This document shows positions 1,657 to 57,949 of a stretch of DNA of 64,000 nucleotides, in pieces (position 1 is the stretch's first letter; every line of letters begins with the position of its first letter). Position numbers and translations under genes: made by a program. Below the pieces are notes generated by a model, which did no database searches, was not told the DNA's origin, and saw only the letters and a list, made by a program, of their open reading frames with translations. Origin of the DNA: Bryopsis sp. KO-2023. Lineage: Eukaryota; Chlorophyta; Ulvophyceae; Bryopsidales; Bryopsidaceae. Location: positions 248,001 to 312,000 of the forward strand of contig BSYQ01000010.1 of the NCBI GenBank assembly GCA_030272585.1, given 5' to 3'.

Positions 1657-2233
1657 TCAGGTCGCCGGACGTTTCAAGCCCCTCTTTGGCGCAAGCGCGG
1701 GCACACTCCAGCGGACCTCTCGCAGCGGCACGCAATCACGATTGGTTCGTCCCGGGGAGGCTGGTTGCGTCGGCAGGGGTGGACTGACGAGCGCGATTCG
1801 CAAGGACGTCAGCACCAGACCTGGGCCCGACCGGACCGGCAGCGAAAAACCGGTCCGGTCCGGTCCAACCTGTCCATGGACCGGCTGACCTGTCCGGTCC
1901 TGTCCGGTCCAACGAAAAAACGCCGGTCCTTGCAAGACCGGACAGGTTGTGACCTGTCCGGTCCTGTCCACTCCGGTCCAGTCAACCTCGGAAATCTGCA
2001 GAAATTTGGACCGGTTTTCTGACAGATTTTCCGTTTTTAGACAGGTCACACCCACATTTCGCCTTTATTAGACCGGCGATGTGACCTGTCTAAAACCGGA
2101 ACGACCCTGTCTTGACAGGGTTGTTCTCCTGTTTTAGACCGGCTCCAGGTCGGTCTGGACAGGTGGGCTGCCTGTCCAGACCGACCTGGAGCCTGTCTAG
2201 AACAGGTCGCACAATTAAGCACTTTTAACGTGC

Positions 2234-2733
2234 TAATTGTGTATCAATCGATTGGGAACTGATTCAATTGATTAAAGAACAAAGTCTTATTTATTATATG
2301 CATTTTTAATGCATGAATGACGTGAGCCAAGCCCACCAGCCACCGACTAGAGGGAGTCGGTCGACTCAAGGAGGATTCGAACCCGGGTTGGCTAAGCCCG
2401 AGTCGAAGACACTATCACTAGTGGACCCCACCACAGGGACGCTCAAAAGGGGGCCGTTACTTTTAAGTACCCGTTTAATTTTGGAAAATTAAACGGGTAC
2501 TTAAAAGTAACGGCCCCCTTTTGAGCGTCCCTGTGGTGGGGTCCACTAGTGATAGTGTCTTCGACTCGGGCTTAGCCAACCCGGGTTCGAATCCTCCTTG
2601 AGTCGACCGACTCCCTCTAGTCGGTGGCTGGTGGGCTTGGCTCACGTCATTCATGCATTAAAAATGCATATAATAAATAAGACTTTGTTCTTTAATCAAT
2701 TGAATCAGTTCCCAATCGATTAACACATTAAAA
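2234..2733. repeat. Giant near-perfect palindrome at the core of M1
   Basis: The two arms of about 250 nt are reverse complements with only a few differences at the outer ends. They meet at AATTTTGGAAAATT (2,477-2,490). Each arm contains one tRNA-like unit, so the DNA or a transcript could form a hairpin about 250 bp long. Confidence 0.9.
2525..2600 (+). other. tRNA-like pol III unit (plus-arm copy; mirror copy on minus strand at 2,367-2,442)
   Basis: A perfect B-box GGTTCGAATCC lies at 2,584-2,594 (mirror 2,373-2,383), preceded by an A-box-like CCACTAGTGATAGTG at about 2,542-2,556. The putative T-stem (CCGGG/CCTCC) does not pair well, so this is a tRNA-derived sequence rather than a convincing functional tRNA gene. 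Confidence 0.55.
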
Positions 2734-3670
2734 AGTGTTTAATTGTGTGACCTGTTTTAGACAGGTGCCAGGTCGGTCTGGACAGGCGGCCCACCTGTCC
2801 AGACCGACTTGGAGTCGGTCTAAAACAGGTCATATTGGGCGTCACATCGGTCTAAAACAGGGTCACACCGGTCTAAAACAGGTCACACCGGTATGACCGT
2901 ACTAGACAGGCGACAACCTGTCTGGAAAGGTCAAATCCGGTCCAGAAAGGTCAAATCCGGTCTAGAAAAGGTGGCCTTTACTAGACCGGATTTGACCTTT
3001 CTTGGACCGGATTTGACCTTTCCAGACCGGATTTGACCTGTCTAAGAAAGGTCAAATCCGGTCCAGAAAGTGGTTGCCGGTCCTGTCCGGTCCGGTCCAA
3101 CGGGTCGGCGCCCAGGTCTGGTCAGCACCCTCGGCGCCATGGCCGTGTGCACCCGAAGCTGGCACAGCCATACTATGGACGTGATCGGAAATGATCGGCC
3201 GTTCATTTTCGATGTCAGGACAGGTCGTTTCACTGATCTGACCTGACACGATCTCGTTCCACATGATTCTAAAAATGATCGGTTTTTTTTTTTTTTTTTT
3301 TTACCGATCATGATCGATGATCGTGATCGTGATCGGCCGATTAAAACCTGATCGATGATCGTGATCGGCCGATCAAAGCCTGATCGTGATCGGGATCGGG
3401 CTTCCGATTATCGATCTGATCGGCAGCTCCGATCACGACCACGATCACGATCAAGCGTCGCGACCTGTCGGCACGTGATCGGTCGATCAAGATCGGTGAA
3501 ACGCCGATTGATCGGCCGTTGATCCGATCAGCTCCGACCATGATCGGCCATGGATCAATTGATCGGAATTTAATTTAAGATTCCGATCATGATCGGTCCC
3601 ATAATCAATTGATCGGTCAATTGATCGGTCTTACGAAAATGTCCACAAGTCACCACCCGAAGGTGTTTCT

Positions 3671-3762
3671 GGAGGTGTAAGGATTCGAACCTAGGACCTC
3701 ACTGACTAGAATCAAGCAAATCGACGCTTAGACCACTCTGAGCTGCGGTTAGAGTGTGCTCC
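3671..3762 (-). other. tRNA-like unit, minus arm of M2
   Basis: This is the opposed copy of the unit at 3,817-3,908, with about ten scattered differences. On the minus strand it has a perfect B-box GGTTCGAATCC and an A-box-like AGCTCAGAGTGGTCTAAGC, and it ends ACACCTCC. Confidence 0.5.
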
Positions 3763-3816
3763 GTGTCATTATATACCTGATCAGTCAGTCCGACAAACTG
3801 AGGTATATAATAACAC

Positions 3817-3908
3817 GGAGGACCTAGTGATCGTGGTTCAGGGTGGTCCAAGCGTTGATTTGCTTGATTCCAGTCAGTGAGGTCCTAGGTTCGAACCCTT
3901 ACACCTCC
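3817..3908 (+). other. tRNA-like unit, class II (long variable arm) layout; plus arm of M2
   Basis: It starts GGAGGACC and ends ACACCTCC, allowing an acceptor-like GGAGG/CCTCC pairing. The A-box region is TGGTTCAGGGTGGTCCAAGC and the B-box GGTTCGAACCC (3,888-3,898). About 92 nt fits a Ser/Leu-type tRNA with a long variable arm. I cannot assign an anticodon with confidence. Confidence 0.5.
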
Positions 3909-5155
3909 AGAAACACCTTCGGGTGGTGACTTGTGGGCATTTGTGATGGACCGATCAATTGACCGATCAATTGATCATGGGACCGATCATGATCGGAATC
4001 AATTGATCATGATACCGATCTGATCGGCAGCTCCGATCCCGATCACGATCTCGATCAAGCGTCGCACCCTGTCGGTACCTGATCGGCAGTTTTTGATCGA
4101 CCGATCACGATCAGGCCGATCAAAAACTGCCGATCAGGTTGGGCGACCGATCAGATCGGTGATCGGCCGATCGTGATCGATGATCGGCCCTGCCAGACCT
4201 GATCGGCGACCGATCAGATCGGTGATCGGCCGATCACGATCATGATCGGTCTCCCGGTTGATCGGAGACCGATCTGATCGTGATCGGATCCATAGTATGG
4301 GCACAGCCCACACTCTTTCGCTGCATCCACCGAGACCCCCTTTCGCGTTTCGCTGAGTTGTCCGACCACGTCCAAGCTCCCGTCTGGGTTCGTCCTCTCC
4401 ACCATCACATCTGGCGCGTACCAGAGTCTCTGGACACAGAGGTCTCTGCAGCATATCCGGTGCTTCCCACATGGAAGCTCCCGCACTGGTGCCCCAAGAG
4501 ATCGCGCCGTCTTGAAGCAGAGCGAACAGCCGCGCCCCGTTTCTTTCAGCGCCGTCTCCATCTCACTCTTTTGGCCTGCTGCAGGTTTTTCTGGTTCAGG
4601 GAGCCCTGTGTCCAGGAAGCCGAAGGACAACTCCTCTTCGGAATCCAACCGCGTGACCGGCATGCTCCTCGCCCACTCTCGCCAAGCTTTCAGCTCACTC
4701 TCGGCAGCACTCAGAGACCCTTGCAGCTTCAACTTTTCCTGCTCCACCTTTTGACACTTGCTCCTCAGCCTTTCCAACTCCGCAACGTCGACTGCCCTCT
4801 TCCGCAGGACCTGCACAGCCTCCTCAAACGCCACAACCTCATCTGCCCCCTTGATCACGTCGGCTTTCTCCACCGCTGCCGCAGGGATAACCACAGGGGC
4901 AGCCTCTGCTGGCTCACTGCTGCTGGCGGGGGTTGAGACGATAAGGGCGGCCTGGTTTGCTGGTTGCTGATCCATGTTGATTCCTTTTTTTTCTTTTCGA
5001 ACGATAGGCTCCTCTTTCTCTCTTCCTGCTCTGCGCACGTAACTTGCTAGACAGTTTCCGACTCCAGTATACTGCACACCTATTTCTGTTTCTGTCAGGG
5101 GTTGCTTCAGTCTGTCAGAGACATCAACCTGTCACCTCTGCTTGATCTAGTCCTT

Positions 5156-7646
5156 TCAGCTTCTTATCTCAAACTCACGTAACTTGTCCAGTGCGTTTCG
5201 CAAGTTTCTGGCAGGTTCCCAGGTGTCCTCCGATTGATCATAACCCTGCCACCTGACAAGGTACTGCTTCCTGCCCCTGACAGTCCTATCTGCCAGAATC
5301 CTGTCAACCAGGTACTCCTCTTGGCCTGCCACCATTTCAGGCTCAGGGTGCCTCCCTGTCAGGAAAGCTGCCCTCCTGATCTTCGAAAGCAGGTTTCAGC
5401 TTGGACACATGGAAGGTGTTATGAATTTTCCAATGACCTGGCAGCCTCAGCCTGACTGCAACTTCAGATAACCTCTTCAGAACTACAAAAGGTCCACAGT
5501 ATTTTGCAGTCAATTTCCTGCTCAACACCTGTGGTAGGGGTAAGTCCTTCGTGGCGAGAAAAACTTTGTCGCCCGGCTGAAAGCCCCCTCCCCTTCTGTT
5601 TTCGTCCGCCCCCTGGCGTTGACGTGCCTGAGCAGAAGCAATGTTCCTTCTGCAGGTTTGCAATGCAGTCTGCCAAGTAGACCACCAATCATCCACTGCA
5701 GGGCAAGCTGTAGCAGCTACAGCACTTGCAGGAGTTCTGGGTTGTTGTCCATTCATCAAATAGAAAGGAGAAAACCCAGTTGTAGCATTTATGCTGGAAT
5801 TGTATGCAAATTCTGCAGCATCCAAATGCGTATCCCAGTCTGTGCCTGCAGGTTTTACATAACTGCGCAGAATTTCCTGCACTGTTCTGTTAGCTCGCTC
5901 AGTCTGACCATCTGTCTCAGGATGATAACTGCTAGACATTGCTAACCGAGTGCCTGCCTTCTTCCAAAGAGCCCTCCAAAAATTGCTAGTGAAACGACTA
6001 TCCCGATCAGAAACAATTTCTTGAGGCAATCCAAAGAAACGAACCACATGTTGGAAAAACAAATCTGCTACCCCTGCAGCAGTAACTGTCTGCTTTGTTG
6101 GAATGAGTCTGATCATTTTTGTGAATCGATCCACAACCACCAGCAAATAATCTGACCCTTTCTGAGTCCTTGGCAAAGGTCCAACAAAGTCCAATGAGAC
6201 ACTAGTCCACCTGCCATCTGGAATTGGCAAGGGCTGCAGCTTACCCAAAGGCTTCTGAGTAGAGGCCTTGTTTCGTTGGCAGGGAATGCAATTCCTCACA
6301 TACTTCTGCACAGATCCTGAAATGAGTGGCCAGAAGTAATACTGCTGAACCCTGTGCAGGGTCTTCCTCCTGCCCAGATGTCCTGCCAATGCAGACTCAT
6401 GGCAAGCATGCAGTATCTTTTCCCTGAGCCCATCTGCTTCAGGTATCCACCATTTCCAGGAATGACCAACATGCCTCCAAAGTTTCAGACCATCCCATTT
6501 CACATGTGGAGGTCTGGAAGGTGCTCCAATCAGCTGCCAACACAATGGATCCTTGTTGTAAGCTGCCAGCACTGCCTGCTGAAATTCCCGATCTGCTGTC
6601 AACCTTATCCTTGCATTCAGCTAAGGACCATGTTCCTCTGTCTGATGTGTGGCCCTGCTCAACGCATCTGCCACCACATTGTCTCTGCCTGGCCGGTACT
6701 TGATCTCGAACTTGAAGGATTGCAGGGTTTCCATCCATCTTGCCTGCCTCTGTGACAGATGAGGCTGGGTGTGCAAAAATTTTAGAGGTGCATGATCGGT
6801 GTGCACGGTGAACTCCTGAGCATCCAAGTAGTGCCTCCACACTTTCAGAGCATGCACCACAGCCAACAGCTCCTTTTCATGAGTCGCATAGTTGAGCTCT
6901 GCCGGTTGCAGTTTCCTGCTTTCATATGCCACTGGTTGCTGACCCTGCCCCTGGTCCTGTGTTAGGACTGCTCCAATAGCATAGTCTGAGGCATCTGTGA
7001 TCACCTCGAATCTCAGACTTGGGTCCGGCACCAAAAGCACTGGTGCAGACATTAACGCCTCCTTGACATCCTGCATTGCTGCAGCTTCTGCCTCAGTCCA
7101 TTTCCACACTGCCTCCTTTTTCAATAGAGCAGTGAGTGGTTTGGCTCTTGCAGAAAAATCCTTGATGAATCTTCTGTAATAGTTTGCCAATCCCAGAAAT
7201 GACCTGAGATCCTTCACTGAAGTCAAAGGTGGCCAGTCCCTGATGACCTGCACCTTACCCTGCAACACCTGTACTCCTGCAGCACTCAACTCATGCCCCA
7301 GAAACTCAACTTGCTCCTTGCAGATTTCACATTTGGAAGCTGAAGCATATAATTTTTGCTCCCTCAATCTCTGCATAACCTTTTTCAAGTGAACCTTGTG
7401 TTCTGCCCAACTCTTGCTAAAAATCAAGATGTCATCTAAGTAAACGATGCAGAAGGCATCCAGAAAATCATGTAACACATGATTCATTGTGTTCATGAAG
7501 GTGGCAGGAGCATTTGTCAGCCCAAAAGGAAGAACAATGTACTCGTAGAGGCCATACCTGGTGCGGAAGGCCGTTTTCTCACAGTCTGCAGGGTCCAACC
7601 GCACCTGATGGTAGCCTGCGCAGAGATCAATTTTGCTGAAGCAGCG
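5156..7646 (-). pseudogene. Element A pol, downstream part: RT (C-half), RNase H, integrase, chromodomain
   Basis: The frame resumes just after the TSD of element B with [18 protein letters not shown] and continues through the RT catalytic motif [11 protein letters not shown], RNase H ([14 protein letters not shown]) and the primer-grip region. Then come the integrase zinc finger (HESALAGHLG ... CIPCQRNK) and the DD35E core (LDFVGPLP, IVSDRDSRFTS, SYHPETDGQTERANR). A chromodomain (EEYLVDRILADR ... RWQGYDQSEDTWEP) lies at about 5,180-5,330. Lesions are an in-frame TAG at 6,621-6,623 between RNase H and integrase, and a one-base frameshift near 5,345 that puts the chromodomain out of frame with integrase. 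The frame is otherwise open, so decay is recent. Confidence 0.9.
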
Positions 7647-7680
7647 TGATAAGGGGGTCTAGGACCCCGAGACACAAGCA

Positions 7681-7717
<37 letters not shown>

Positions 7718-7821
7718 TCACTGGGAAGATTAATTTTTACAGGAGGGCCCCCTGCCCTATAAACCCTGTCGTACATCCCATTGTACTACACAATACCCCT
7801 AAACCCGAGTTACTACTATCA
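7647..7821 (-). repeat. LTR of element B (3' LTR in element orientation)
   Basis: TGATAAG...CTATCA, with a CA/GA microsatellite. The same sequence is at 18,146-18,320. In minus orientation it is preceded by the polypurine tract GTGGGGGGGGGGGACAAAT. Confidence 0.95.
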
Positions 7822-7857
7822 ATTTGTCCCCCCCCCCACGAGAGGGTGTCCACACCC
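7822..7857 (-). other. Polypurine tract and upstream hairpin of element B
   Basis: Minus strand: a G-run with GACAAAT abuts the LTR. Just upstream, at 7,844-7,857, lies GGGTGTGGACACCC, with stem GGGTGT/ACACCC. The identical 14-mer lies at the same place in element C (23,002-23,015). Confidence 0.75.
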
Positions 7858-8106
7858 GGCACAACCCTGGAAAGAAAGAAAGAAAAAGGTCGAACTAGAA
7901 TAAAAAGAAACCCCAAACAAACCCACAACAAAAACCCCAACTAAAGGTCAGACTAAACCCCAAACAAACCGAGGAAAAATCCCAAACCAAACCCATGCTC
8001 AACCCCACAGAAAAACCCCGTTCTGTCTTGAGGCTTGGTCTCTGGCTTGGACGGTAGCTTTGGTCTCCGGCTTGGTCTGCTTTTCGTTGTCACTCCAGAA
8101 CCCATC

Positions 8107-9855
8107 TCAGCCGCCAGCTGGTTGTTCAGCTGGTTCATCGACTGGCTCTGCCACTAAGTCGATCGGAGGCTCGTCCTCTTCCACATCCAAAGGAGGGAAA
8201 TCCTCATCCAAAGGTGGAGGAAGAGGTCCCAAAGACGAGGGCTCCGAGGATGGACTCCTGCTGGACACGGAAGGACTTTTTCCTTCGTCCTGTTCTGGAT
8301 CCTGTTCTCCTTTTGTTTCTGGTTCGGGTGTTCTCTCTTTTTCCTGCTTCTCATACTCCTCCGCCCACTTTTTCACCAACGGACCCAAGCGCTTCAGGGC
8401 AAGGCCTTTCGGAAAGCCCATGTCCCTTCTCAAGCACTGATAGCACTCGGTGAGAGTCTGGGTCGTGGGTGGAGCCTGAAGGAGTGGCTGGAAGTCTGGC
8501 TCCCGCATGTCCAAATGTAGGTCCTTCAGCTGAACCTGTGGCGGGTCGATTCGCTGCTCCTGCCACACCCCGTATAAGCGCACGAGGATAATCATGAGGT
8601 TCCAGTGGGTTCGGCACACCGTGTGGCTCGTGCATGTGGTGATCACGTAGCTATCCGCCAGCGCCGGCGGCGAATAGCACCACAAGCAGATCGGTGGCTT
8701 TTCCCCACGCCTGTCCTTGAACCTCTTGGACATGTCGGCGAGCGCCTCCTCTTCCTCTCTCTCCTTCCTTTTCTTGGGCGCTGACTTTTCGTCGGTCTTT
8801 CCACCGGTCTGTCCCCCGGTCAGATCGCGGATTCTCCTTGGTTGTGGCTCTGAGATCATATCGTCGGCGACGTCGGGAATTTCAAAGTGCCCCGGTGCAC
8901 GACTTCTGATTCTCTCCAGCGTTCTGTCCACCTGCGTATAGTCATACCCGGCTAGCCGGTGGTTAACCGGAACGTTCCCTTTGCCGTAGTAGACAGGCTC
9001 CTCTCCGTCTCTGATCGCAGCAGCAGCTCCAGCACCCTGCGTGATGATGTCGTCCATCGTCGCCCGACAAAGGTTTTCCACATAGTCCCCAAGGCGTGCG
9101 GGAACGCTGTGGAGCAACCGGCTCATCAACCCGGACGGTGCCTCAGACGAGTACACAGCCGTTTGCCAGGCCGACCTTTCGTCTGTGGACGTCAGGTGCG
9201 GCTGCTGTTTCGTCAACTGCGACTGCAGCTTTTTCTGCGTCTGGTTCGCAGTGTCGAGTTCCTTTTGAAGCTGCCTCAGCTCCTGTTCGGCTGTTCCCCT
9301 CGCTTGTTGAGCGATTTTTAGATCGTGTTCAAGTTGGCTAACTTGATTGCAGAGTCGTTGAGCTGCACCCTCAAACTTTTTCAAGTGCTTCTCTGCCTGA
9401 TCCGCCCGCGCGCGTTGTGCGTCGCGTTCTGCACGGAGTTCCAACACATCGTCTTGTAACCGTTGACACCTAGCTTGGAGAGTAGCTGGGTCGGCGTCCC
9501 GGTCGAGTGTTTTTCCTGTTCTGGAACTAGGTTTTTCCGGCAGTTCTGTCGGTGGACGGATCACGATCTTTGAGGTGCCTTTCAGCAACGATGTTTCGAA
9601 GTTCCGAAGTTTCGAAAGCACCGAAGGAGCTGGGAGAGTTTTCATGAGTTTCGCCTTAGGAGGTGGTGTGATAAGTGGTTTGGGTTCCCCTCTGGGTGGG
9701 CAAGCGTCGGCGAGAGTTCCACTTTTTCCTTTTCCGCCTTTCTCGCCGCCACTGCCTTTCGTTTTTCCGCTGCCACCCAGTTGTTTTCCACTTGACTCCT
9801 TTCCCTCAACCGCCTTATCACCACTGCGCCACATGATCGGGCTGTGCTTTGGCAT
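8107..9855 (-). CDS. ORF3 of element B: charged N-terminus, coiled coil, RING-like Cys/His domain
   Basis: The start is taken at Met 9,855 (MPKHSPIMW). An upstream in-frame Met at 9,951 would add 32 residues including a Lys run. The order is: a Gly/Ser/Lys-rich segment, a long predicted coiled coil (heptad-rich RCQRLQDDVLELRAERDAQR onward, about 100 residues), a middle region, a basic KKRKEREEEE stretch, then a Cys/His cluster (CLWC, 14 residues, CTSHTVCRTHW), about 75 residues, CYQC, and a Glu/Pro/Ser-rich acidic tail. It lies in the env position downstream of pol but shows no signal peptide or membrane segment, so an envelope role is unlikely. The same architecture occurs in A and C. The function is unknown; Gag-like self-assembly, RNA binding or ubiquitin-ligase-like activity are guesses. 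Confidence 0.75.
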   Translation of the reverse strand: MPKHSPIMWRSGDKAVEGKESSGKQLGGSGKTKGSGGEKGGKGKSGTLADACPPRGEPKPLITPPPKAKLMKTLPAPSVLSKLRNFETSLLKGTSKIVIRPPTELPEKPSSRTGKTLDRDADPATLQARCQRLQDDVLELRAERDAQRARADQAEKHLKKFEGAAQRLCNQVSQLEHDLKIAQQARGTAEQELRQLQKELDTANQTQKKLQSQLTKQQPHLTSTDERSAWQTAVYSSEAPSGLMSRLLHSVPARLGDYVENLCRATMDDIITQGAGAAAAIRDGEEPVYYGKGNVPVNHRLAGYDYTQVDRTLERIRSRAPGHFEIPDVADDMISEPQPRRIRDLTGGQTGGKTDEKSAPKKRKEREEEEALADMSKRFKDRRGEKPPICLWCYSPPALADSYVITTCTSHTVCRTHWNLMIILVRLYGVWQEQRIDPPQVQLKDLHLDMREPDFQPLLQAPPTTQTLTECYQCLRRDMGFPKGLALKRLGPLVKKWAEEYEKQEKERTPEPETKGEQDPEQDEGKSPSVSSRSPSSEPSSLGPLPPPLDEDFPPLDVEEDEPPIDLVAEPVDEPAEQPAGG

Positions 9856-9955
9856 TCTCTTTTTTTTTTTTTTTTTTTTTGTGTTGGCTGCGCTTTGTTC
9901 TCCGACTAGTCTCCGACTTTTCTGTATGCGCGCCGAGAATAACCAGGACAAAATG

Positions 9956-10494
9956 ATCGCAAGTCCGCTTTAAGATACGCTAGGCGTATTAGCTAACGTA
10001 CCTCGGTAACGTGACACTCTATGGTGGTCGCCGTCACCACACGGGTTCGTGCCTATTTGATTTTACCCTAACTTGCTTATGTCAACTCAGTTCCACCTGC
10101 GGCGCAATCACGTGACCTCCAGGTCGGACATTAACCCATCACTTGATCCAATGTCCCCATCACCTGTTGTCAGTCGCTATGAGCGTGTGAGTTGTGCGTT
10201 AGGTAAACCTCCCCGGAAAGAAAACTGACCCCTAGCCCGTCCTGCGAACCGTCTACAGTTCTGTCACGGGAAAAGATAGCAACCCGTTCGCCGGAAAAGA
10301 TGGAAACTTTCCCTAGGAAAAGATGGAAACTTTCCCTCGGCTTTTCCGGGAGTTCTACTTGGTGCTCTTTTCCTAAGTCTTTTTGGTATCCCATCTGGAT
10401 AGCATTCCAAATCGACTTTCTCGGCTTAATATTTTTCCCCCAGCTGGAAGGATAGTATTAAGTCGAGCGTGAACAGAGTGGTAATGATCCCTGT
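9956..10494 (-). other. Spacer between pol and ORF3 of element B
   Basis: About 540 bp with no supportable gene. The repeated words GGAAAAGATGGAAACTTTCC occur near 10,290-10,335. If ORF3 is separately expressed, its splice acceptor or promoter should lie here, but none is obvious. Confidence 0.5.
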
Positions 10495-13400
10495 TTAGGT
10501 TCGAGTTCTGCGTTGGGCCCTAGTCTTTTTCTTAGACTGGGTCACTTGTTTATTCTCCGGTTTGTTGGCTAAGTACTCCTTAAGCAAGTCCTGGGCATTG
10601 GCCAGGTGGCTTTCTGGCTCCCAGGTGGATTCCATCAAATCGTAGCCTTTCCAAAGGATCAGGTACTCCTTGCGAGTAGTGCCCCGATCTCTGAGGATGC
10701 GCTCGACCTCGAATTCGATGGTTCCATCCACTAGCTCCCCCTCTGGAGCGTCTATCTCTCGCTGATCGTCATCAAGCCGAGAGTAAGCCTTCAGTTTCGA
10801 CACATGGAAAGTTGGGTGGATTTTCCAGTGGTCGGGAAGGTCAAGACGGTAGGCGACAGCCCCAATTCGGCTAGCCACCCGGAAAGGTCCAACAAATCGT
10901 CGGCGGATTTTCGGTGGGATTTTCTGAAGTGAAGCAAGGGGAATATACTTGCTTTGTACCAGCACTTCATCGCCAACCTGAAACTCCACTTTCCTTCGAC
11001 GTTTGTTTGCTGAGGTGCACATGCGGTTCTGTGCCTCTGCGTATTTCGCCTTAGCGTTTCGCATTTGGTCGTCCATTCGACGTACCATCTCAGCCGCCAT
11101 TTCCGATTCATCGCCCGTCCGAACTCCCTTCCTGGCAACAACTATCTGCCCCATGTTCTGGCCATACAGAAGATGGGCTGGCGCATAGCCTGTGGAGACA
11201 TTCCGTGAATTATTTGCGGCAAATTCCGCGGTCGGCAAATAATCCACCCAACGGTCTGGGTACCGTTCCACATACGGACGCAGGAAATCCTCCAGCACCC
11301 GGATGGTGACTTCCGACTGCCCATCCGTTTGAGGATGGTATGCAGTGCTCATCCGGAGCTGAGTACCTAAAAGTTTGAAAAGGGAGGTCCAGAACAAACT
11401 TGTGAACCTTGGATCCCGATCCGAAACTATGATTTTAGGCAGCCCGTAGTGTTTGTATATGTTCTCCACGAACAGCTTTGCGTATTCTGGCGCCGTGATA
11501 GTTTTGTTACAGGGTACGAACCTCGCATACTTCGTCAATCGGTCTACAAAGACAGCGATTGCTGTGAAGCCATGGGAAGACGGTAGGTCGGTAACCAAGT
11601 CCGTCGTGATCTGTTCCCACTTCTGGTCTGGGATAGGCAACGGCTGCAAAAGACCTTTCTGTCTTTGCAAGTCCGATTTGTTTAGTTGACAAGTTGGGCA
11701 CGTTTTCACGTATGCCTTTACGGCTAACCCAACGCCTTTCCACCAGTAACTGCGGGTAAGTACTTCGGTCATGCGGTCTGCTCCAACATGACCGGCACTG
11801 GGAACGTCGTGATGCTCTTCCAGAATCCGTTTCTGGAAAGAAGCAGGGACCACAAGCAAACTAGGACCTGGGTCTGTCTTGGTATAATACAAGAACCCGT
11901 CGTCCAGCTTGTATTGCGGAGAAACCCCTCGTTCCATCCTTTCAAAGATAGGCTTGAGTTGTTCATCACTTCTCAAAGCCTCTTTCCATGCCTCCTTCTC
12001 TGCCACTTCCCAAGTGGAGAGGTTATTGAGCTGGTCTGGCGGACCAGGAAGGCTCCGGGATAACGCATCAGCCAAGACATTGGCTTTCCCCTGGATATAG
12101 ACGATTTTTGGACCTATGGATTGGAAAAACCCTGAGTTTAACCACCGGGTTTGGGTCCGCGACAACGTGCTCTGGTTCATGAAGTGGGTGATCGGTTTGT
12201 GGTCCGTCAACACCTTCACACCCCCATCGCATCCCTCAAGGTAGTGTCGCCACTGGGCTAAAGCATATGCTATTGCCCCCAGCTCCCGCTCATATGCGGA
12301 GTATCGCGTTTCAGCTGGTTTTAATCGTCTGGAAAGGTATGCAATTGGTTGCAAACCTTTCCCATGATCCTGGGTAAGAACCGCTCCATATGCAGTTCCA
12401 GATGCATCCGTTATTACGGTGTACTCCTTAGCCGGATCAGGAAGGAGTAAGATCGGTGCGCGGCTAATCCGATCCTTAAGTTCGTTGTAGGCATTGCGTT
12501 GGTTCAGCCCCCATTCCCAGACAGTATCCTTCTTGGTTAGATCTGTCAAGGGACTCGCAATCCTAGCGAACTCAGGAATGAACTTACGATAGTAAGATAC
12601 CATTCCCAGGAAACTTCGCACATCAGTGACCGAAGTTAACTCCTTCCATTGTTGAATAGCCTTAACCTTATCCTGCATCGGTTGAAGGCCTTTTTCCGAC
12701 AAATGATACCCCAGGTAGTCCGTCTCTGCTACCCCTACTTCGCACTTACTGGCTTTTGCGTACAACTTATGTTTCCGCAACCGTTCAAAGACCAGTTTTA
12801 GGTGCTCGACGTGCTCTTCCACCGAGTTGGAAAAGACCAGGATGTCGTCGATAAACACCACTACAAACTCGTCAAGGAACTCCCCCAGCAAATCCTGAAC
12901 CATGGTCTGGAACTGGGCTGGGCAGTTGGTCATTCCGAACGGACACACGAGAAATTCGAAATGTCCGTATCTCGTCCGGAATGCCGTCTTGGGAGTATCC
13001 TTGGGTCGAACGGGGAACTGCCAGTAGCCTGAGCGGAGGTCGATCTTCGTATAGATCTTCGCTCTGGCGAGACGGTCCATTAACTCCTCAGGAAGAGGGA
13101 GTGGATACCTATTCTTTACCGTGAATTTGTTTATCCAACGGTAATCCACACACATTCTCAACCCTCCGTCTTTCTTAGGAACAAAGAGTATGGGTGCGCC
13201 CCAGGGACTCTCGGAGGGTCGGATCTTCCTTTGTTCGAGGAGGTAATCCACCTGTGTCCTAACTTCGTCCAGCTCGGCTGGAGAGAGTTTGTACAAGGGA
13301 CGGTGGATTGGGGTCATTTGTTCGTCCTCCAAGTCCACCTTAAATTCGTGGCCTTTTCTGACTGGAGGAACACCGGGTGGTAAGTCTTTCGGGAACACAT

Positions 13401-14613
13401 CCTTGAAACTTGTGAGGACAGCCTTGATCCTTGGGTCGAGACCCGAATGCATTACCTTTTCCACATCCGGCTGGAGATAAGCTGGTGTGGTTCCAGTAGC
13501 GTTCAAACGCTCTTCTGGAATTCCCGGATATGGATACTGCATGAGATGTGCCATATCTTCCGGGGTGGTTGGTCGCACAACCACAAGGTATGCCTGATCA
13601 ACTTCTGGACTGTTCTTCACGAGCGAGAATAACTTCTTCGCTGAGACTGTATCAATAGCCGGTGCTAGGTGCTGTAAGTAATCTGATGGTCGTTCCTTCA
13701 TAGGAACAGTTGTCCATCCAGCACCCACTGGAACTTTGAGCGTGCCTGTTGCAAAGTCCAGTTTGGGATTGGTCTGCATCAACCAAGGAAGCCCTAGTAT
13801 CATGTCATATGAAAGGTTTGGGAAGACGTCTGCGGAAAGGGTTGTGGTATAAGTACCCATCCTGAGCTGCAAGTCTTCGCATCGCCGATCAAGTGAACAT
13901 AGGGTTCCGTCCGCCAAAGTGACTCCCTTTTTGCACTCGGTTGTTTCGAGTTTCAGTCTCGTGACTAGTTTCTTGGTAATGTAGTTCTCCGTTGCACCAC
14001 AATCAACATAGGCGGAGATCGGTACTCCTCCTAATCTGGCTCGGATCTCATATCCCATAAATTTCAAATGGTTAGGACCTCCTAGTGGTAACATACGCTC
14101 AGAAGGTGAATACTGACCTTCATCCACTTTTTGTCCTCTACCTGTTCCCTGAACAGGGGCTGCTGACTCGTCAGTTGGTGGTGAACGAGTGGCAGGCTTA
14201 TTTGATTCCCTTGCGGGTTCCCTTCCTTCCGGACTTCGTTTCGTTCCTTGAGGCGGGAACGATACCGAATTCTCAGTTCCTTCAGGACTACCAAGGTCTC
14301 CATGAACAGAGTCGACAGGTTCCGAACTTGATTCTGAACTTGTCCTAGTAAGCGTGCTGCACTTACTGGATCGCGTTTCCAACTTAGCACTCATAATCGA
14401 TCCCTCTGCACCTTGGGTAGCATTCTTTTCTATTTCCCCTTGTGCTCTTTTATTCACTTCTGCATTTCGAGCTAACCTTTCTTTTCTAAGAAGTTTCTGG
14501 CGCTGCTTATATCTGTGACGGCGTGCCCTTCTGCGTTTCGCCGAACGAGTCTGGGCTCTGTTCATCCGGCTTTTTCGTTTAACCATTTCTTGAACTTTTC
14601 GCCCTCTGGACAC
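10495..14613 (-). CDS. pol: Pol polyprotein of element B (protease, RT, RNase H, integrase, chromodomain)
   Basis: The ORF has 1,372 codons. A basic Arg/Lys-rich N-terminus comes first, then the aspartic protease motif DCGATEN (residues 204-210) and RT from about residue 430 with FIDDILVFS (IDD at 588-590). RNase H has VITDASGTAYGAVL. The integrase zinc finger is HHDVPSAGHVG ... CPTCQLNK, and its catalytic core runs from TDLVTDLP to VSDRDPRFTS and YHPQTDGQSE. The C-terminal chromodomain (VERILRDRG ... LWKGYDLMESTWEPE, about residues 1,300-1,345) marks it as a chromovirus. It overlaps the gag end by 52 bp in the -1 frame. An in-frame ATG with the context AAATGG sits in the overlap and is conserved in element C. 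All key residues are present and no lesion is seen. Confidence 0.95.
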   Translation of the reverse strand: MSRGRKVQEMVKRKSRMNRAQTRSAKRRRARRHRYKQRQKLLRKERLARNAEVNKRAQGEIEKNATQGAEGSIMSAKLETRSSKCSTLTRTSSESSSEPVDSVHGDLGSPEGTENSVSFPPQGTKRSPEGREPARESNKPATRSPPTDESAAPVQGTGRGQKVDEGQYSPSERMLPLGGPNHLKFMGYEIRARLGGVPISAYVDCGATENYITKKLVTRLKLETTECKKGVTLADGTLCSLDRRCEDLQLRMGTYTTTLSADVFPNLSYDMILGLPWLMQTNPKLDFATGTLKVPVGAGWTTVPMKERPSDYLQHLAPAIDTVSAKKLFSLVKNSPEVDQAYLVVVRPTTPEDMAHLMQYPYPGIPEERLNATGTTPAYLQPDVEKVMHSGLDPRIKAVLTSFKDVFPKDLPPGVPPVRKGHEFKVDLEDEQMTPIHRPLYKLSPAELDEVRTQVDYLLEQRKIRPSESPWGAPILFVPKKDGGLRMCVDYRWINKFTVKNRYPLPLPEELMDRLARAKIYTKIDLRSGYWQFPVRPKDTPKTAFRTRYGHFEFLVCPFGMTNCPAQFQTMVQDLLGEFLDEFVVVFIDDILVFSNSVEEHVEHLKLVFERLRKHKLYAKASKCEVGVAETDYLGYHLSEKGLQPMQDKVKAIQQWKELTSVTDVRSFLGMVSYYRKFIPEFARIASPLTDLTKKDTVWEWGLNQRNAYNELKDRISRAPILLLPDPAKEYTVITDASGTAYGAVLTQDHGKGLQPIAYLSRRLKPAETRYSAYERELGAIAYALAQWRHYLEGCDGGVKVLTDHKPITHFMNQSTLSRTQTRWLNSGFFQSIGPKIVYIQGKANVLADALSRSLPGPPDQLNNLSTWEVAEKEAWKEALRSDEQLKPIFERMERGVSPQYKLDDGFLYYTKTDPGPSLLVVPASFQKRILEEHHDVPSAGHVGADRMTEVLTRSYWWKGVGLAVKAYVKTCPTCQLNKSDLQRQKGLLQPLPIPDQKWEQITTDLVTDLPSSHGFTAIAVFVDRLTKYARFVPCNKTITAPEYAKLFVENIYKHYGLPKIIVSDRDPRFTSLFWTSLFKLLGTQLRMSTAYHPQTDGQSEVTIRVLEDFLRPYVERYPDRWVDYLPTAEFAANNSRNVSTGYAPAHLLYGQNMGQIVVARKGVRTGDESEMAAEMVRRMDDQMRNAKAKYAEAQNRMCTSANKRRRKVEFQVGDEVLVQSKYIPLASLQKIPPKIRRRFVGPFRVASRIGAVAYRLDLPDHWKIHPTFHVSKLKAYSRLDDDQREIDAPEGELVDGTIEFEVERILRDRGTTRKEYLILWKGYDLMESTWEPESHLANAQDLLKEYLANKPENKQVTQSKKKTRAQRRTRT

Positions 14614-17459
14614 TTACTTTGAATATGTCCAGTTTTTCCACACATATAGCATTTGGGATTTGCGCCTCCACTTCCACGTCCTTGATTCCTGCCACCACCT
14701 CGTCCGCGACCTCGGCCACCACCCCGTCCCCGACCTCGACCTTGGCCAATGTTTTGAGCCTGGTCTGGCTGAGGTTGCTGTTGGCCACCCATCTGGTTTG
14801 CCTTATCAGTCTGGGGTTGGTTTTGCTTTTTATTTTGGCCTCGGCCTTTACCTCCGCGCCACCGTCCGCGGCCACGAAAGTTTCCTCCTCCGGATGAGGC
14901 AATAGCATCAAGACGAGCCGCCGTCTGGATCGCCAACTCAATGCCGTGCGGCACTTGAGCCACAGTTTGTTGTTTGATATGGAACTTTAACCCGTCCACG
15001 AAGAAGAAGTATTGTTCTTCATCTGTCATGTTGGGAATCCTCAGCACCTGTTCTCGGAAAGCAACAATGTACTGATGCACTGACCCAGTCTGTTTCAGGT
15101 TCCGTAAGGAGCGCCTGGCTACATCAGACATTCTGGTGGGTTCAAATGCTTGGACCAGTTCCTCAACAAACTCAATCCAATTGGTGATTGGATGTCTTTT
15201 TCCTTCCCTTGTACGCAGATCCTGGACGTTTCGCCACTGAGCAGCAGCTCCGGTCAGGTTACTGCGGAAGAGCCTGAACCATACGCTCTCATCGATGTCC
15301 AAAGTCTGGCAATAGACCGTCATTTCTAGTTGCCAATCTCTGATCCATCGCTGACCATCACCTGAGAAGGCCTTTGGGAAAGGAATACGAACGGATGACG
15401 GAATCCGTCCGTGGCGATCTTGCGGAGCAGCAAAGCCTTGGTTAGGGTCTGGAGGACCCCCACCTCCACCTCCGCCACCTCCACCGCCACCTGGGTGGTA
15501 CGGCCATCCACCACCCCCACCTCCACCTGGTCCGGAAAGGAAAGATCCCCCTCCACTTCCAGGTGGTCCTCCTCCGCCTCCGCCTCCACCCCCAGGTCCA
15601 CCTCCGGGTCCCCCTCCACCACCACCAGATCGATTTCCACCCTGTGGCTGGCTTGATGGAGTTGAGGGATAAGAACCCCACCCGTAATACGGGTTACTCG
15701 CGGAAGGTGCTCCGTATTGGTTTACGGATTGTCCCAAACTTGGTTGGGTGCCTGGTTGGTTTCCTGGTTGCATACCAGGTTGGGTGTTAAGAGCCGGGAT
15801 TGGATAGAAGACAGACAGCGGAACTGTCGTCAGTGGTTGTGTTAACATGGATGTCGTTGGTGGTAACACACTCGTTACAGGGGCACTAAGTATGGGTCTG
15901 GCTGTGCCAAGTTGACCCGCTTGGCCGAATGGTGCGCCCATTGCCATAGTTTGTGGCGGCGCAAGACTCCATGCCGTCCGTGTTCTTGGGGATGTAAATA
16001 AACCCCAGGAAGATGGAGAACCTCCACCCACGGAGTCTGCGACAGTTGTCGATGGGCTGCGACCACCCAATCCTCCTAACGTGGTTAGACCAGTAAAAGT
16101 ACTCAGATCCGGAACAGGTGGTACCGGAAATGGGATACTGGTAAGAGGAGTGGATGACACAAAAGGAACGCTTGTGGCTGCAGCTGTCGTGGCCGGCAAA
16201 GTGACCGTGCCAGTTCCTGCTCCCATCATACCCACTACAACTGGGTCCTGAGCCGGGACTCGAACTTTCTCCCGTTTTTTCCACGCACTCAGTGTTTCTT
16301 TGAACTTCGAATCAACATACTTGGAGAGATTACTTTCCAAAGTCTGCTGTTTCTCTGTCGCGTCTGATAGAAATTTCTCCATCAGTTGCATCGACCTGTG
16401 TCCTCCTGCAGTGTCATCAGAACTCACACTGCCTCGTTCCGCTCTTCTTTGTTTGCGTTGTTCTTCGGCTTGGTGTAAGTCCCGCAACACTTTTAGGCTC
16501 TGGCTTACCAAGCCTGAGAGTGTGTCTAGCTGGCCTTGGTGGTCGACTTGCTCGCACCGAGACTCATCAGTAGTCCGAGCTAGGTTATCCAGCGTTGTCT
16601 GCTGTAGGCGCATACCTTCAGCAACTTTTGTCAGAGAGGCTTGCAGAGACAGAATTTGTTTCTCCCTGAGCGCATTGGTCTGATCAACAGCTTCAGCTTG
16701 GGTACGGGCTGATTCCTGCAGTCGATCGAGTCGCTCTTGCAGAATAGCCTCGTTATCGTATTTACCCAACAGATTCCTGTCGATCCGCTCTGTGGACCTT
16801 ATATTCTGTTCCAGCAATTTGTGCTGGTGGTCTAACAATTTCTGTTGTCTTTCTATAGACTCAGTATTTTGATTGACCAGCTTCTGGGCCTCCTTCCTGA
16901 CATAGAGCACGAACTGCTCATATTCCTCTTTCAGGTCGCCTTTTAAGGTCGACTCTGCACGCTGAACCTGCTCGTGAACTTGTCCTTCCAGGTTTTGTGC
17001 GACCTCTTGCACATTCGAGGAGACAGCGGCATACACATGCTCAGCTGTGTCCCTAAGTTGTCCCTCGTCCACACCATGAACGTGCACCTCCTGCTGGTGG
17101 ACGTTTATGTGCTGATGTTCATGGTGAAGGATGTTGGTGACTTCTATTGTCGGGACGTCCTCCATATCCTCATCATACTCCTCGTCCCCGGACTCTTCCG
17201 ACTCTTGTTCCGAGTCTAAGTCTTCGTCCGGTTCCTCAACCTGGTCGGGTACATGTCTGTCCCACTGCAAATCATGTATTTGCTGCGCTGGTGGGTGCAC
17301 CACATCTGGATAAACCACGGGAATTAGTTGGTTATCCACCACCTCTTCCTCCTTAGGAGGTGGAATAGGTGGTAGCTGTGGCGGCGTCTGGCCGGACATG
17401 TTTTTGTTTGAATTTCCTGGAATTTTGACGTAATAGGAGTGTGTCCGGAAAGTTTCCAA
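14562..17459 (-). CDS. gag: Gag of element B
   Basis: The 965-codon ORF begins at METFRTH, with a second plausible start at MSGQTPPQLPP 20 residues later. An acidic N-terminal half carries a His/Val motif (HINVHQQEVHVHG) and a very long coiled coil (about residues 130-400). Then come a Thr/Pro/Ser linker, Gly-rich runs near residues 615-670 (polyG/GGGGPPG), a Gag capsid-like domain (IRDWQLEMTVYCQTLD ... FVEELVQAFEPTRMSDVARR), RG-rich repeats and a zinc knuckle CYMCGKTGHIQSKC. At 965 residues it is much longer than usual Ty3/gypsy Gag proteins, and element C has the same layout. The coiled coil and His motif are conserved between B and C. Confidence 0.9.
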   Translation of the reverse strand: METFRTHSYYVKIPGNSNKNMSGQTPPQLPPIPPPKEEEVVDNQLIPVVYPDVVHPPAQQIHDLQWDRHVPDQVEEPDEDLDSEQESEESGDEEYDEDMEDVPTIEVTNILHHEHQHINVHQQEVHVHGVDEGQLRDTAEHVYAAVSSNVQEVAQNLEGQVHEQVQRAESTLKGDLKEEYEQFVLYVRKEAQKLVNQNTESIERQQKLLDHQHKLLEQNIRSTERIDRNLLGKYDNEAILQERLDRLQESARTQAEAVDQTNALREKQILSLQASLTKVAEGMRLQQTTLDNLARTTDESRCEQVDHQGQLDTLSGLVSQSLKVLRDLHQAEEQRKQRRAERGSVSSDDTAGGHRSMQLMEKFLSDATEKQQTLESNLSKYVDSKFKETLSAWKKREKVRVPAQDPVVVGMMGAGTGTVTLPATTAAATSVPFVSSTPLTSIPFPVPPVPDLSTFTGLTTLGGLGGRSPSTTVADSVGGGSPSSWGLFTSPRTRTAWSLAPPQTMAMGAPFGQAGQLGTARPILSAPVTSVLPPTTSMLTQPLTTVPLSVFYPIPALNTQPGMQPGNQPGTQPSLGQSVNQYGAPSASNPYYGWGSYPSTPSSQPQGGNRSGGGGGGPGGGPGGGGGGGGGPPGSGGGSFLSGPGGGGGGGWPYHPGGGGGGGGGGGGPPDPNQGFAAPQDRHGRIPSSVRIPFPKAFSGDGQRWIRDWQLEMTVYCQTLDIDESVWFRLFRSNLTGAAAQWRNVQDLRTREGKRHPITNWIEFVEELVQAFEPTRMSDVARRSLRNLKQTGSVHQYIVAFREQVLRIPNMTDEEQYFFFVDGLKFHIKQQTVAQVPHGIELAIQTAARLDAIASSGGGNFRGRGRWRGGKGRGQNKKQNQPQTDKANQMGGQQQPQPDQAQNIGQGRGRGRGGGRGRGRGGGRNQGRGSGGANPKCYMCGKTGHIQSKCPEGEKFKKWLNEKAG

Positions 17460-18131
17460 ACTTTCTGGTGCCTTGGATGCGAACTTGTTTCAGTTCTGGT
17501 TGCAATCCTAGTCGCTATCTTTTCTTGAACCTTACTAGGTCAGAAATAGATAGGAGTTTTACACTTGACAACGTCGGGTGTTACTTTCCCGTTCGCGTTC
17601 TGTCAGCCGACTAGGTTAGTACCTTGGCCGGTGATTCAGTCTACGACTAACTGTAGAACCAGTCGTGACTCAGGCGGTGCGGTAACCGATTGCGCGCTGG
17701 AAAGAGTGACAATGAGTCACCTGCCAGAACGACTATTTTTCGTGTTACTGGCAGAAGCGTCAGTCGACGGAAGTTGGTCGTTCCGGACGACGTTCTTTCC
17801 TACGCCGGTTCGCACTTTCAGTTGTTCGCCTGCGCGTTTCGGGTTTACGCCGATCGTTGCTCTCCTTGCACTGTTGTAGTGCTTTCGCCTTGTTTCCCTT
17901 TAGATCTACAGATCTGTAGGTTTCCAGAAATTCGTTCACTGGACTCCGATTCTTTTGCGACTTCGCCTGGCGTTTTCGAACGACGACGCGAGCACGTCGT
18001 TCGAAGGATAGCTCTCCTCGCGACCCCTGGAACACAGAGTTCCAGATCTGTGGGATTTAGTAATCCCTAAGGTCAGATCTTTAGGGGGGGGGTTCGCGAG
18101 TTCTCCTGTGGGGTGCGCCTGGCCTCGCCTT
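17460..18131 (-). other. 5' untranslated leader of element B
   Basis: About 670 bp between PBS and gag with no supportable gene. Small ORFs here are unconvincing. Confidence 0.6.
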
Positions 18132-18143
18132 GCTCCGAAACCA
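18132..18143 (-). other. Primer binding site of element B
   Basis: Minus strand TGGTTTCGGAGC, two bases inside the LTR, complementary to a tRNA 3' end of the form GCTCCGAAACCA. It differs at two of 12 positions from the common plant initiator-Met PBS TGGTATCAGAGC. Confidence 0.8.
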
Positions 18144-18145
18144 AA

Positions 18146-18179
18146 TGATAAGGGGGTCTAGGACCCCGAGACACAAGCA

Positions 18180-18216
<37 letters not shown>

Positions 18217-56000: not shown

Positions 56001-56024
56001 CCTAAATTAGTTCCTATCCCATCC

Positions 56025-57330
56025 CGTGCGAAAACTTGTTGATATCGCCGAGGACACCCACGTCCCCGTTCACCCGTGTGTACGCGTGCCCGCCCTCCAC
56101 CACCCGTACCCGTACCCGTCCCAAACGTGTCCACTCCCTCACTAAACTCGTTGGAAACTCCAGGGAGACTCTCCTCCCCGTCCACCCGTCTGTACGCGTG
56201 CCCCCCTCCTCCCCCACCCGTACCCCAGACCTCTCCACTGCCTCCGTGCGAAAACTTGTTGATATCGCCGAGGACACCCACGTCCCCGTTCACCCGTGTG
56301 CCCGCCCTCCACCACCCGTACCCGTTCCCTTCCCAAATGTGTCCACTCTTTCACTAAACTCGTTGGAAACTCCAGGGAGACTCTCCTCCCCGTTCCCCCG
56401 TCTGTATGCGTGCCCGCCCTCCACCACCCGTACCCGTACCCGCACCCTTCCCAAACGTGTCCACTCCCTCACTAAACTCGTTGGAAAGTCCAGGGAGACT
56501 CTCCTCCCCGTCCACCTGTCTGTACGCGTGCCCCCCTCCTCCACCACCCGTACCCCAGACCTCTCCACTGCCTCCGTGCGAAAACTTGTTGATATCGCCG
56601 AGGACACCCACGTCCCCGTTCACCCGTGTGCCCGCCCTCCACCACCCGTACCCGTACCCTTCCCAAATGTGTCCACTCTTTCACTAAACTCGTTGGAAAC
56701 TCCAGGGAGACTCTCCTCCCCGTTCCCCCGTCTGTATGCGTGCCCGCCCTCCACCACCCGTACCTGTACCCGCACCCTTCCCAAACGTGTCCACTCCCTC
56801 ACTAAACTCGTTGGAAAGTCCAGGGAGACTCTCCTCCCCGTCCACCCGTCTGTACGCGTGCCCCCCTCCTCCACCACCCGTACCCCAGACCTCTCCACTG
56901 CCTCCGTGCGAAAACTTGTTGATATCGCCGAGGACACCCACGTCCCCGTTCACCCGTGTGTACGCGTGCCCGCCCTCCACCACCCGTACCCGTACCCGTC
57001 CCAAACGTGTCCACTCCCTCACTAAACTCGTTGGAAACTCCAGGGAGACTCTCCTCCCCGTCCACCCGTCTGTACGCGTGCCCCCCTCCTCCCCCACCCG
57101 TACCCCAGACCTCTCCACTGCCTCCGTGCGAAAACTTGTTGATATCGCCGAGGACACCCACGTCCCCGTTCACCCGTGTGCCCGCCCTCCACCACCCGTA
57201 CCCATACCCTTCCCAAACGTGTCCACTCCCTCACTAAACTCGTTGAAAACTCCAGGGAGACTCTCCTCCCCGTTCACCCGTCTGTACGCGTGCCCGCCCT
57301 CCACCACCCGTACCCGTGTGCGAACGTGTT
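56025..57330. repeat. Tandem array of about 110-bp monomers with 220/330-bp higher-order units
   Basis: Monomer type X (CGTGCGAAAACTTGTTGATA...) starts at 56,025, 56,245, 56,575, 56,905 and 57,125, spacings 220, 330, 330 and 220. Between X units lie one or two type Y monomers (GTGTCCACTCCCTCACTAAA...). X and Y share their second half (CCCCGT..ACCCGT.TGTACGCGTGCCC). The GC-rich units lack stop codons in several frames on both strands, giving long spurious ORFs. Confidence 0.88.
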
Positions 57331-57412
57331 CACTGGATATCCGTCAAAACTCTGTGATGTCGTCATGGCAGGTCGGCGGCTATGTATACGTATACGCGGT
57401 ACAAACCGCGAG

Positions 57413-57420
57413 TATATAAT
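57413..57420 (+). promoter_or_regulatory. TATA-like box upstream of the DUF3987 ORF
   Basis: TATATAAT, 45 bp before the ATG at 57,465, between the satellite array and the gene. Confidence 0.4.
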
Positions 57421-57485
57421 GTGCGTCTATCACGGCCAGAAAGAAGAACCTATTTTTCTTTTCTATGGACTCTCAAGCTCCCGGG

Positions 57486-57949
57486 CAGAGATAGGACTTT
57501 ACGGTTACGGTCACCGTAACCGGACCGTAACCACCGTAACCGGACCGTAACTGGAGTACAATTTTCGTCAGAAAATCGTACTTTTACGGCCGTAACCGTA
57601 GCACCGTACCACTCCGTACCGCTCCGTACCGGACCGTAACGACCGTAACGGCCGTAACAACCGTAAACCGTAGAAAGTGACCCCCGCAGGGTCCCGCGAT
57701 TCCAAAGGAACCCAGGGGGATTCGAACCCGCGACCCTACTGACTGCAGCCTAACGCTTTAGCACTGAACCACGCTACTTCACGGTGATTTAGGGCCTACC
57801 GTAGTTATACCGTACCTGTTCCGTACCGTAAAAACAACATATTACTCCGGTTACGGTACGGAGTTACGGCCGTAGTACGGTGACCGTAACCCGACCGTAA
57901 CCGGACCGGACCGGAGTCGGACCAAAAATTTGGCCCAAGTCCTATCTCT
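57486..57949. mobile_element. M4: foldback DNA element, CCGTAAC-saturated, 9-bp TSD GCTCCCGGG
   Basis: The 464-bp element has inverted termini CAGAGATAGGACTT (left) and AAGTCCTATCTCT (right). It is flanked by GCTCCCGGG at 57,477-57,485 and 57,950-57,958. The arms consist of CCGTAAC/GTTACGG and CCGTACC words. The core holds one minus-strand tRNA-like unit. It is inserted after codon 7 of the DUF3987-like ORF. Confidence 0.87.
57712..57785 (-). other. tRNA-like pol III unit in M4
   Basis: Minus strand: A-box-like GCGTGGTTCAGTGCT and a perfect B-box GGTTCGAATCC (57,718-57,728), separated by AAGCGTTAGGCTGCAGTCAG. The segments GTGGTTCAG, AAGCGTT and GTCAGT..GGTC are shared with the unit in M2, pointing to a common tRNA-derived ancestor. 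Confidence 0.55.

Follow-up and report, generated by a model that had tools for sequence, protein, structure and literature searches.

The window analysed here, a stretch of 64,000 nucleotides from the siphonous green alga Bryopsis sp. KO-2023 (C10:248001-312000 of the 91.09-Mb genome, 28 contigs, that was searched), contains four islands, M1 to M4, each rich in short words of its own. M1, M2 and M3 are housed in a retroelement with 464-bp long terminal repeats (LTRs) that are 99.8% identical, and a second LTR element with a chromodomain in pol and 175-bp LTRs of 100% identity is nested within it (Table 1); given these near-identical LTRs, both insertions look recent. The ends of the islands were set by an exhaustive parse around the coordinates of an earlier reading of the sequence, the original prediction. 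All four start with 5'-CA, end with TG-3', carry inverted termini of 11-14 bp and are flanked by an 8-bp target-site duplication (TSD). The first bases are CAT in M2 and CAG in M1, M3 and M4, and hAT-type CA termini are accordingly present in all four families. The predicted islands, inverted termini, TSDs and family-specific words are thus confirmed, but the TSDs had been read as 9-10 bp because a shared terminal base was counted, and the ends have moved by 1-2 bases.

Table 1. Islands M1 to M4, related features and host retroelement (window coordinates unless a contig is named).
Feature	Position	Strand	Remarks
M1 non-autonomous hAT element	1816..3120	+	1305 bp; terminal inverted repeat (TIR) CAGACCTGGGC; words CCGGTC and CCTGTC
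M1 left TSD GTCAGCAC	1808..1815	.	end parse
M1 right TSD GTCAGCAC	3121..3128	.	end parse
M1 foldback palindrome	2128..2829	.	arms 94.7% complementary
M1 B box GGTTCGAATCC	2584..2594	+	mirrored copy 2373-2383, - strand
M2 non-autonomous hAT element	3169..4299	+	1131 bp; TIR CATACTATGGA; word GATCGG
M2 left TSD GGCACAGC	3161..3168	.	end parse
M2 right TSD GGCACAGC	4300..4307	.	end parse
M2 foldback palindrome	3579..4000	.	87.1%
M3 non-autonomous element, hAT-type ends	19010..19392	+	383 bp; termini CAGTCATGGGCTG / CAGACATGGGCTG; word TGCACAG
M3 left TSD CCCAGCAC	19002..19009	.	7/8 bases agree with right TSD
M3 right TSD CCTAGCAC	19393..19400	.	end parse
M4 non-autonomous hAT element	57486..57950	+	465 bp; TIR CAGAGATAGGACTT; word CCGTAAC
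M4 left TSD CTCCCGGG	57478..57485	.	end parse
M4 right TSD CTCCCGGG	57951..57958	.	end parse
M4 B box GGTTCGAATCC	57718..57728	-	motif search
Truncated M2-type copy	34295..34675	-	94.5% identical to window 3167-3547
Host LTR retroelement	258..22754	.	LTR identity; inner LTR element 7647-18320
hAT family with M1-type end	C1:9360071, C5:6030316, C7:1236238, C7:1851366, C10:1262021, C11:2040262		PF05699 matches

The termini of all four islands recur throughout the genome. Counted in forward and reverse orientation, there are 270 M1-type (136 + 134), 502 M2-type (253 + 249), 461 M3-type (230 + 231; pattern CAG[TA]CATGGGCTG) and 790 M4-type ends (393 + 397), and the reversed patterns used as controls gave 1 and 0, 1 and 1, 0 and 0, and 0 and 0 matches, respectively. 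In genome searches with whole elements the best 40 candidates per query were scored. The M1 search yielded 291 candidates, and besides the window copy the scored set comprises 22 full-query matches at 98-99% and eight more at 92-96%; M2 yielded 366 candidates. Most of the best 40 among 325 M3 candidates align only from base 7-13 onward: at that end the M3-type copies that are more frequent extend a little further (e.g. C1:5081590-5082001, 412 bp), so that the M3 of the window represents a short variant. The best 40 of 555 M4 candidates are the window copy and 39 others, all of 465 bp and with one bit score just below that of the window copy; these 39 therefore seem to differ hardly at all among themselves, suggestive of a recent burst of M4. 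They are short, non-coding, numerous and uniform, as is typical of miniature inverted-repeat transposable elements (MITEs), and the same applies to most of the listed M3 pairs (0.2-0.5 kb), while M1 and M2 are long for MITEs with 1.1-1.3 kb.

A perfect 8-bp TSD flanks 66 of 67 distinct insertions (27 M1, 15 M2, 12 M3, 12 M4 and one larger M4-type element), the exception being the M3 of the window with seven matching bases. For M1 and M2 the count took the loci that align over the whole element, window copies included, leaving out 17 loci with a partial best match, and the duplication was perfect in 27/27 and 16/16 cases (43 loci, 42 of them distinct by their flanks). It was likewise perfect in nine of nine M3 pairs and nine of nine M4 sites picked from the listings; the other cases are two each from further loci and the window copies. 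One lone M3 end (L018) has no partner end inside its locus. In 62 insertions (23 M1, 14 M2, 12 M3, 12 M4 and the larger element) the symmetrised TSDs have T as the second base and A as the seventh with a frequency of 65% each (81 of 124 positions), which agrees with the hAT target preference nTnnnnAn. The original prediction was right that the islands are transposable elements with recurring termini and TSDs, yet it assigned them to foldback elements of the Mutator-like (MULE) type, a view based on their foldback shape and on the 9-bp duplications read by eye. MULE TSDs measure 9-11 bp, and this length fails here: in each of the four islands the parse favours an 8-bp duplication with CA..TG ends, and the duplications are 8 bp long throughout. 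Moreover, hAT transposases, the type at which the searches were aimed, are located between or beside the same termini (see below), which in effect refutes the MULE assignment for M1, M2 and M4 and leaves it barely any probability overall.

The joined flanks of M1 and M2 were used to look for empty sites. This search returned 177 candidates, and the best 40, which were scored, all run uninterrupted through both sites with 93-97% identity (39 span positions 1-640 of the query and one spans 7-640). M1 and M2 are thus absent from the host retroelement's scored relatives; the result is limited to these two islands, as the M3 part of the query drew no scored match. Repeated short words, partly in tandem arrays, might also be expected from ordinary satellite or simple-repeat islands that do not move. 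However, the precise ends with their 8-bp TSDs, the hundreds of dispersed ends and the empty M1 and M2 sites of all 40 scored copies of the retroelement rule this explanation out with near certainty.

Larger elements with the same termini were found by means of the hAT dimerisation domain. The genome search with PF05699 returned 185 candidates; the best 150 were scored, all lie above the cut-off, and they belong to several families. For M2, 100 of the 502 ends were listed, covering C1 and C2 up to 8.10 Mb, and within this stretch all eight genes with a 788-amino-acid (aa) frame sit between convergent M2-type ends. All eight carry the unequal end pair of M2 (CG/TC), with an end spacing of 6.1-6.3 kb in seven and 15.3 kb in one of them; a ninth match on C2 (8104486) is located beyond the listed stretch and was excluded. 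TC/TC ends enclose both 839-aa genes and one 281-aa frame of the same stretch. The right end of M2 (its positions 862-1131, 270 bp) and the 5' end of one 788-aa hAT element share 93.7% identity. The larger M4-type element, C5:208340-213329 (4990 bp, with 211217-211499 unread), has CAGAGATAGGACTT at both ends and the TSD GTCCTGGA on both sides. The last 105 bp of M4 (361-465) match one of its ends at 97% and the first 47 bp the other at 94%. For M1, the last 184 bp match the end of a hAT element (L095) at 83%. This end found 11 full-length matches at 98-100% when used as a query, and six of them start 0.6-0.8 kb downstream of the dimerisation domain, at all six places of one hAT family (Table 1). 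Initial TSD-TIR searches at a set of six hAT loci gave no pair, these loci being too short. A putative autonomous partner sharing the termini, for which the original prediction had advised a search, was thus found for M2 and M4 and, by one end, for M1, with the difference that it is a hAT and not a MULE. Two further groups of copies were noticed, namely, a uniform group of about 1025 bp on C1 and C2 (e.g. C1:964386-965410) with CATACTATGGATC at both ends and the end pair of the 839-aa hAT element, and a shorter group of about 640-700 bp on C1-C3 (e.g. C1:18898-19580) with M1-type end pairs CCC/CGC.

PF05699 is the only Pfam match of the 788-aa family (Dimer_Tnp_hAT, E 3e-18), which also matches the Hermes transposase in the PDB (E 2.8e-9, residues 688-769). 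The 788-aa and 839-aa proteins are 64.7% identical over 759 columns, and a third relative is 39% identical over 96%. The three-way alignment contains the invariant motifs ADGWS, TDHE, C..H, TRWNS and SA..ER.FS, which we take to be the hAT catalytic landmarks. The relationship of the M4-type transposase is only distant (39.7% over 78 residues). On these sequence grounds the transposase is assigned to the hAT fold. Another superfamily with 8-bp TSDs and CA-starting ends would be an alternative, and P elements in particular come to mind on account of their TSD length, their CA ends and the GTCANNAC-like target. A hAT dimerisation domain, at which the search was aimed, and a match to Hermes characterise the genes that lie between or beside the shared termini, which makes such an origin highly improbable, although for M3 the case for hAT is made just by the shared plan and by a terminus (CAGACATGGGC) that is like that of M1 (CAGACCTGGGC) in 10 of 11 bases.

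The words are strongly enriched in the islands. Compared with 200 dinucleotide shuffles per element, CCGGTC occurs 25 times in M1 (shuffle mean 1.24, maximum 6), GATCGG 47 times in M2 (3.86, 10), TGCACAG 22 times in M3 (1.41, 4) and CCGTAAC 13 times in M4 (0.57, 3). The description of the islands as almost wholly made of one word was exaggerated, since exact words cover 11, 25, 37 and 20% of the bases of M1 to M4 (31, 41, 57 and 35% with one mismatch allowed) and M1 has two words, CCGGTC and CCTGTC. In the larger elements the same words are concentrated near the ends. Of the 28 GATCGG copies in the part read of a 788-aa element, 21 fall within its first 300 bp (12 of 17 for an 839-aa element), and in the M4-type element 17 copies of CCGTAA are found in the last 300 bp, 17 in the first 350 bp and one more cluster within the gene. 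The words are hence subterminal repeats of the larger elements for M1, M2 and M4. Their density per 100 bp is 1.92 for CCGGTC in M1 against 3.9 in the ends of the larger element, 4.16 for GATCGG in M2 against 6.0, and 3.66 for CCGTAA in M4 against 4.5 and 4.86. A 784-aa hAT family is also rich in GATCGG, with the terminus-like CATACTAGGGA upstream, and a 774-aa family contains a mixture with CCGAC. This distribution indicates that the word goes with the transposase family, in line with the claim that each family of islands has a word of its own. By analogy with AAACGG in Ac (PMC3260210) and with the Herves motif (PMC3143072), the transposase may bind the word.

The original prediction had proposed transposase-binding subterminal repeats as well, amplified by gene conversion or by insertion of the element into itself. 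Placement and density of the words fit the first part. An amplification within the small elements that was independent of autonomous ones could account for the local tandem copies inside M2 and M3 and for the inverted arms, but the words are equally dense or denser in the ends of the larger elements for M1, M2 and M4, so that no separate amplification in these islands is needed, and we regard it as unlikely.

The predicted hairpin plan applies to M1, M2 and M3, whose inverted arms are long and take up a large part of each (Table 1; for M3, 19088-19368 with 80.7% complementarity), but not to M4. A self-complementarity scan (E 1e-8, at least 60 bp) gave no inverted arms in M4, and its genome search revealed one self-complementary stretch of 60 bp at 83%. 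Its predicted folding is better than that of 100 shuffles (z -7.1; M3, z -16.1). A palindrome packed with GCTTCC/GGAAGC at window positions 55126-55400 (inverted repeat of 81% over 214 bp) was observed in addition; a TIR/TSD search gave none with CA..TG ends, and it is perhaps a decayed member of another word-family. The truncated M2-type copy has an M2-type terminus at the right and a GATCGG-rich tail running left to about 34184; a left end was sought near 34.2-34.675 kb and not found.

A tRNA-like core had been described for three of the islands, and its sole firm part is the B box of an RNA polymerase III (Pol III) promoter. The exact motif GGTTCGAATCC is found once per strand in M1, once together with a variant in M2 and once in M4, and nowhere else in the window. 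All 22 distinct full M1 copies retain a B box on each strand; every one of the 14 M2 copies has kept it on one strand at least, and three of them have lost one. No tRNA was detected in the cores by ARAGORN at default settings or by Rfam at the gathering score, and lax Rfam thresholds gave no RF00005 match and only tmRNA matches under the gathering score of 47 (M2, 17.6 bits; M4, 6 bits). Relaxed ARAGORN finds tRNAs, but it does so in 145-217 of 500 shuffles per core as well, and these matches were therefore not used as evidence. The strongest Rfam matches of M1 and M2 are microRNA hairpin models under the gathering score, which we put down to the long hairpins. Comparison of M1 to M4 by blastn (E 0.01) showed no common sequence except for two stretches that M1 shares with M4, one of 15 bp and one of 17 bp that covers the B box. 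The core alignments of M2-M4 (score 27) and M1-M4 (29) exceed the maxima of 500 shuffles (24 and 26), while that of M1-M2 is within chance (19, shuffle maximum 25). We interpret the core as a degenerate segment of tRNA-derived or Pol III-like character. The B boxes in three families and the two alignments above all shuffles could also be explained by short interspersed nuclear elements (SINEs), i.e. tRNA-derived retroposons, that acquired inverted ends. Their fixed 8-bp TSDs, their inverted termini and the ends they have in common with hAT elements argue against it, as do the absence of a recognisable tRNA head at the ARAGORN and Rfam thresholds and the M1-M2 cores that align no better than shuffles, and a SINE origin is very improbable. 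Among the portions of larger elements that were read, an 839-aa hAT element has a B-box match (GGTTCGATCCC) outside the transposase frame (L071 5632, C1 ~3384131), and another one lies in L063; a search of the portions of the 788-aa, M4-type and M1-type elements found none. In view of the match in the 839-aa element the B box may derive from an autonomous relative.

Taken together, we consider it very probable that M1, M2 and M4 are non-autonomous, Ds- or MITE-like elements of three hAT families and that M3, with its hAT-type ends, follows the same plan. The CA..TG inverted termini are precise in every family and come with 8-bp TSDs; for M1, M2 and M4, both the termini and the subterminal sequence recur in elements that encode a hAT transposase. 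In the mechanism we propose as part of this reading, the short word, which recurs over the last few hundred bases at either end, would be bound by the transposase of the larger element; the enzyme would pair the ends, cut them and reinsert the element at a staggered 8-bp cut that is then duplicated. The non-autonomous passengers would have arisen by loss of interior coding DNA, the word-rich ends being brought together and in part copied in inverted orientation, hence the foldback arms, on either side of a short core that includes a Pol III B box in three families. Differences between the words would reflect a separate binding word for each transposase lineage.

Several observations weigh against this interpretation. 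On C1-C2, 15 of the 26 typed hAT matches lie outside M2-type end pairs, as expected if they belong to other families. The link of M1 is based on one end of a hAT element that was read (L095), five of its 11 matches are without a listed hAT match nearby, and at the C1 place the M1-type terminus on the opposite side lies at a distance of 14 kb (C1:9347146); two M4-type pairs inside this interval make nested insertions likely there. A larger partner of M3 was not found among the first 100 of its 461 ends, which were listed, and comparison by eye revealed no listed PF05699 match between the wider M3-end pairs of the listed C1-C2 stretch. The one long element with M3 ends that was sampled (5067 bp, C1:9717581) was set aside as a partner, since the 441 bases read contain, as judged by eye, a gag-like retroelement frame and no transposase; it looks like a retroelement inserted inside an M3 copy. 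The target preference is loose, with T2 and A7 together in only 25 of 62 insertions. Finally, an array of 15 CCGTAA copies with a mean spacing of about 10 bp and in one orientation is located in the M4-type transposase gene (L066 2882-3028; C5 ~210855-211001), showing that the words are not strictly terminal. It sits between coding frames in what looks like an intron, adjoins a piece that resembles the subterminal end of the element without the terminus, and recurs with 18 copies in L067 and 14 in L068.

A more far-reaching scenario is doubtful, and we offer it tentatively. Several coexisting hAT lineages might have co-diverged transposases and words, amounting to a natural transposase-word code; three otherwise nearly dissimilar passenger families might have taken up a Pol III B box within a core that aids their amplification; and the intragenic, terminus-less word array of the M4-type autonomous element might act as a self-regulatory sink. 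The B-box match in the 839-aa hAT element weakens an independent uptake by the passengers. Matched hAT transposases and their presumed binding words within one genome make the co-divergence of transposase and ends testable by swapping words and enzymes, and the elements are apparently young and possibly active in a siphonous green alga. Title-level listings of the open-access literature contained no paper on Bryopsis hAT elements.

Close to M4, a DUF3987-like frame (window 58967-60637) has a profile match slightly below the Pfam cut-off, and its only match is BSKO_12188 of Bryopsis sp. KO-2023 (86% identity over 91%). Large tandem repeats are located nearby at 56024-57317 (330-bp period) and 60792-61534 (86-bp period, with TGTGCCGCTGTC).

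Among the closest known systems is the hAT family Ac/Ds of maize, with 11-bp termini, 8-bp TSDs and the subterminally repeated hexamer AAACGG that gives specificity, and with many short Ds elements (903 elements in B73) that contain unrelated filler and share little beyond the ends with Ac (PMC3260210). The Bryopsis passengers resemble it in their short termini, their 8-bp TSDs and their subterminal word. They differ from it in the presence of several word-families in one 91-Mb genome, in words that extend through much of the small elements, in the foldback hairpins of three of the four families and in the B box of three cores; the number of word-families, the foldback shape and the recurrent B box are what is unusual here. 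In the hAT element Herves the subterminal motif CG/AATTCAT was found by experiment to be critical and sufficient for transposase binding (PMC3143072); Bryopsis has a short subterminal motif as well, for which binding is suggested by position and density. Galileo, a Foldback-like element of the P superfamily, has long inverted ends and internal repeats with several transposase binding sites, but in contrast to the Bryopsis islands it possesses a P-type transposase with a THAP domain, and long direct-repeat units take the place of a dense word of 6-7 bp (PMC3688188). MER6 is a MITE that carries and spread a SINE domain, but it is derived from mariner and has a conserved V domain instead of a B box (PMC6887750). 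The CMITEs of corals share with the Bryopsis islands a common internal region beside differing termini, whereas their ends are of the TTAA (piggyBac) type, their length is about 100 bp and the available text describes no word repeats (PMC2872659).

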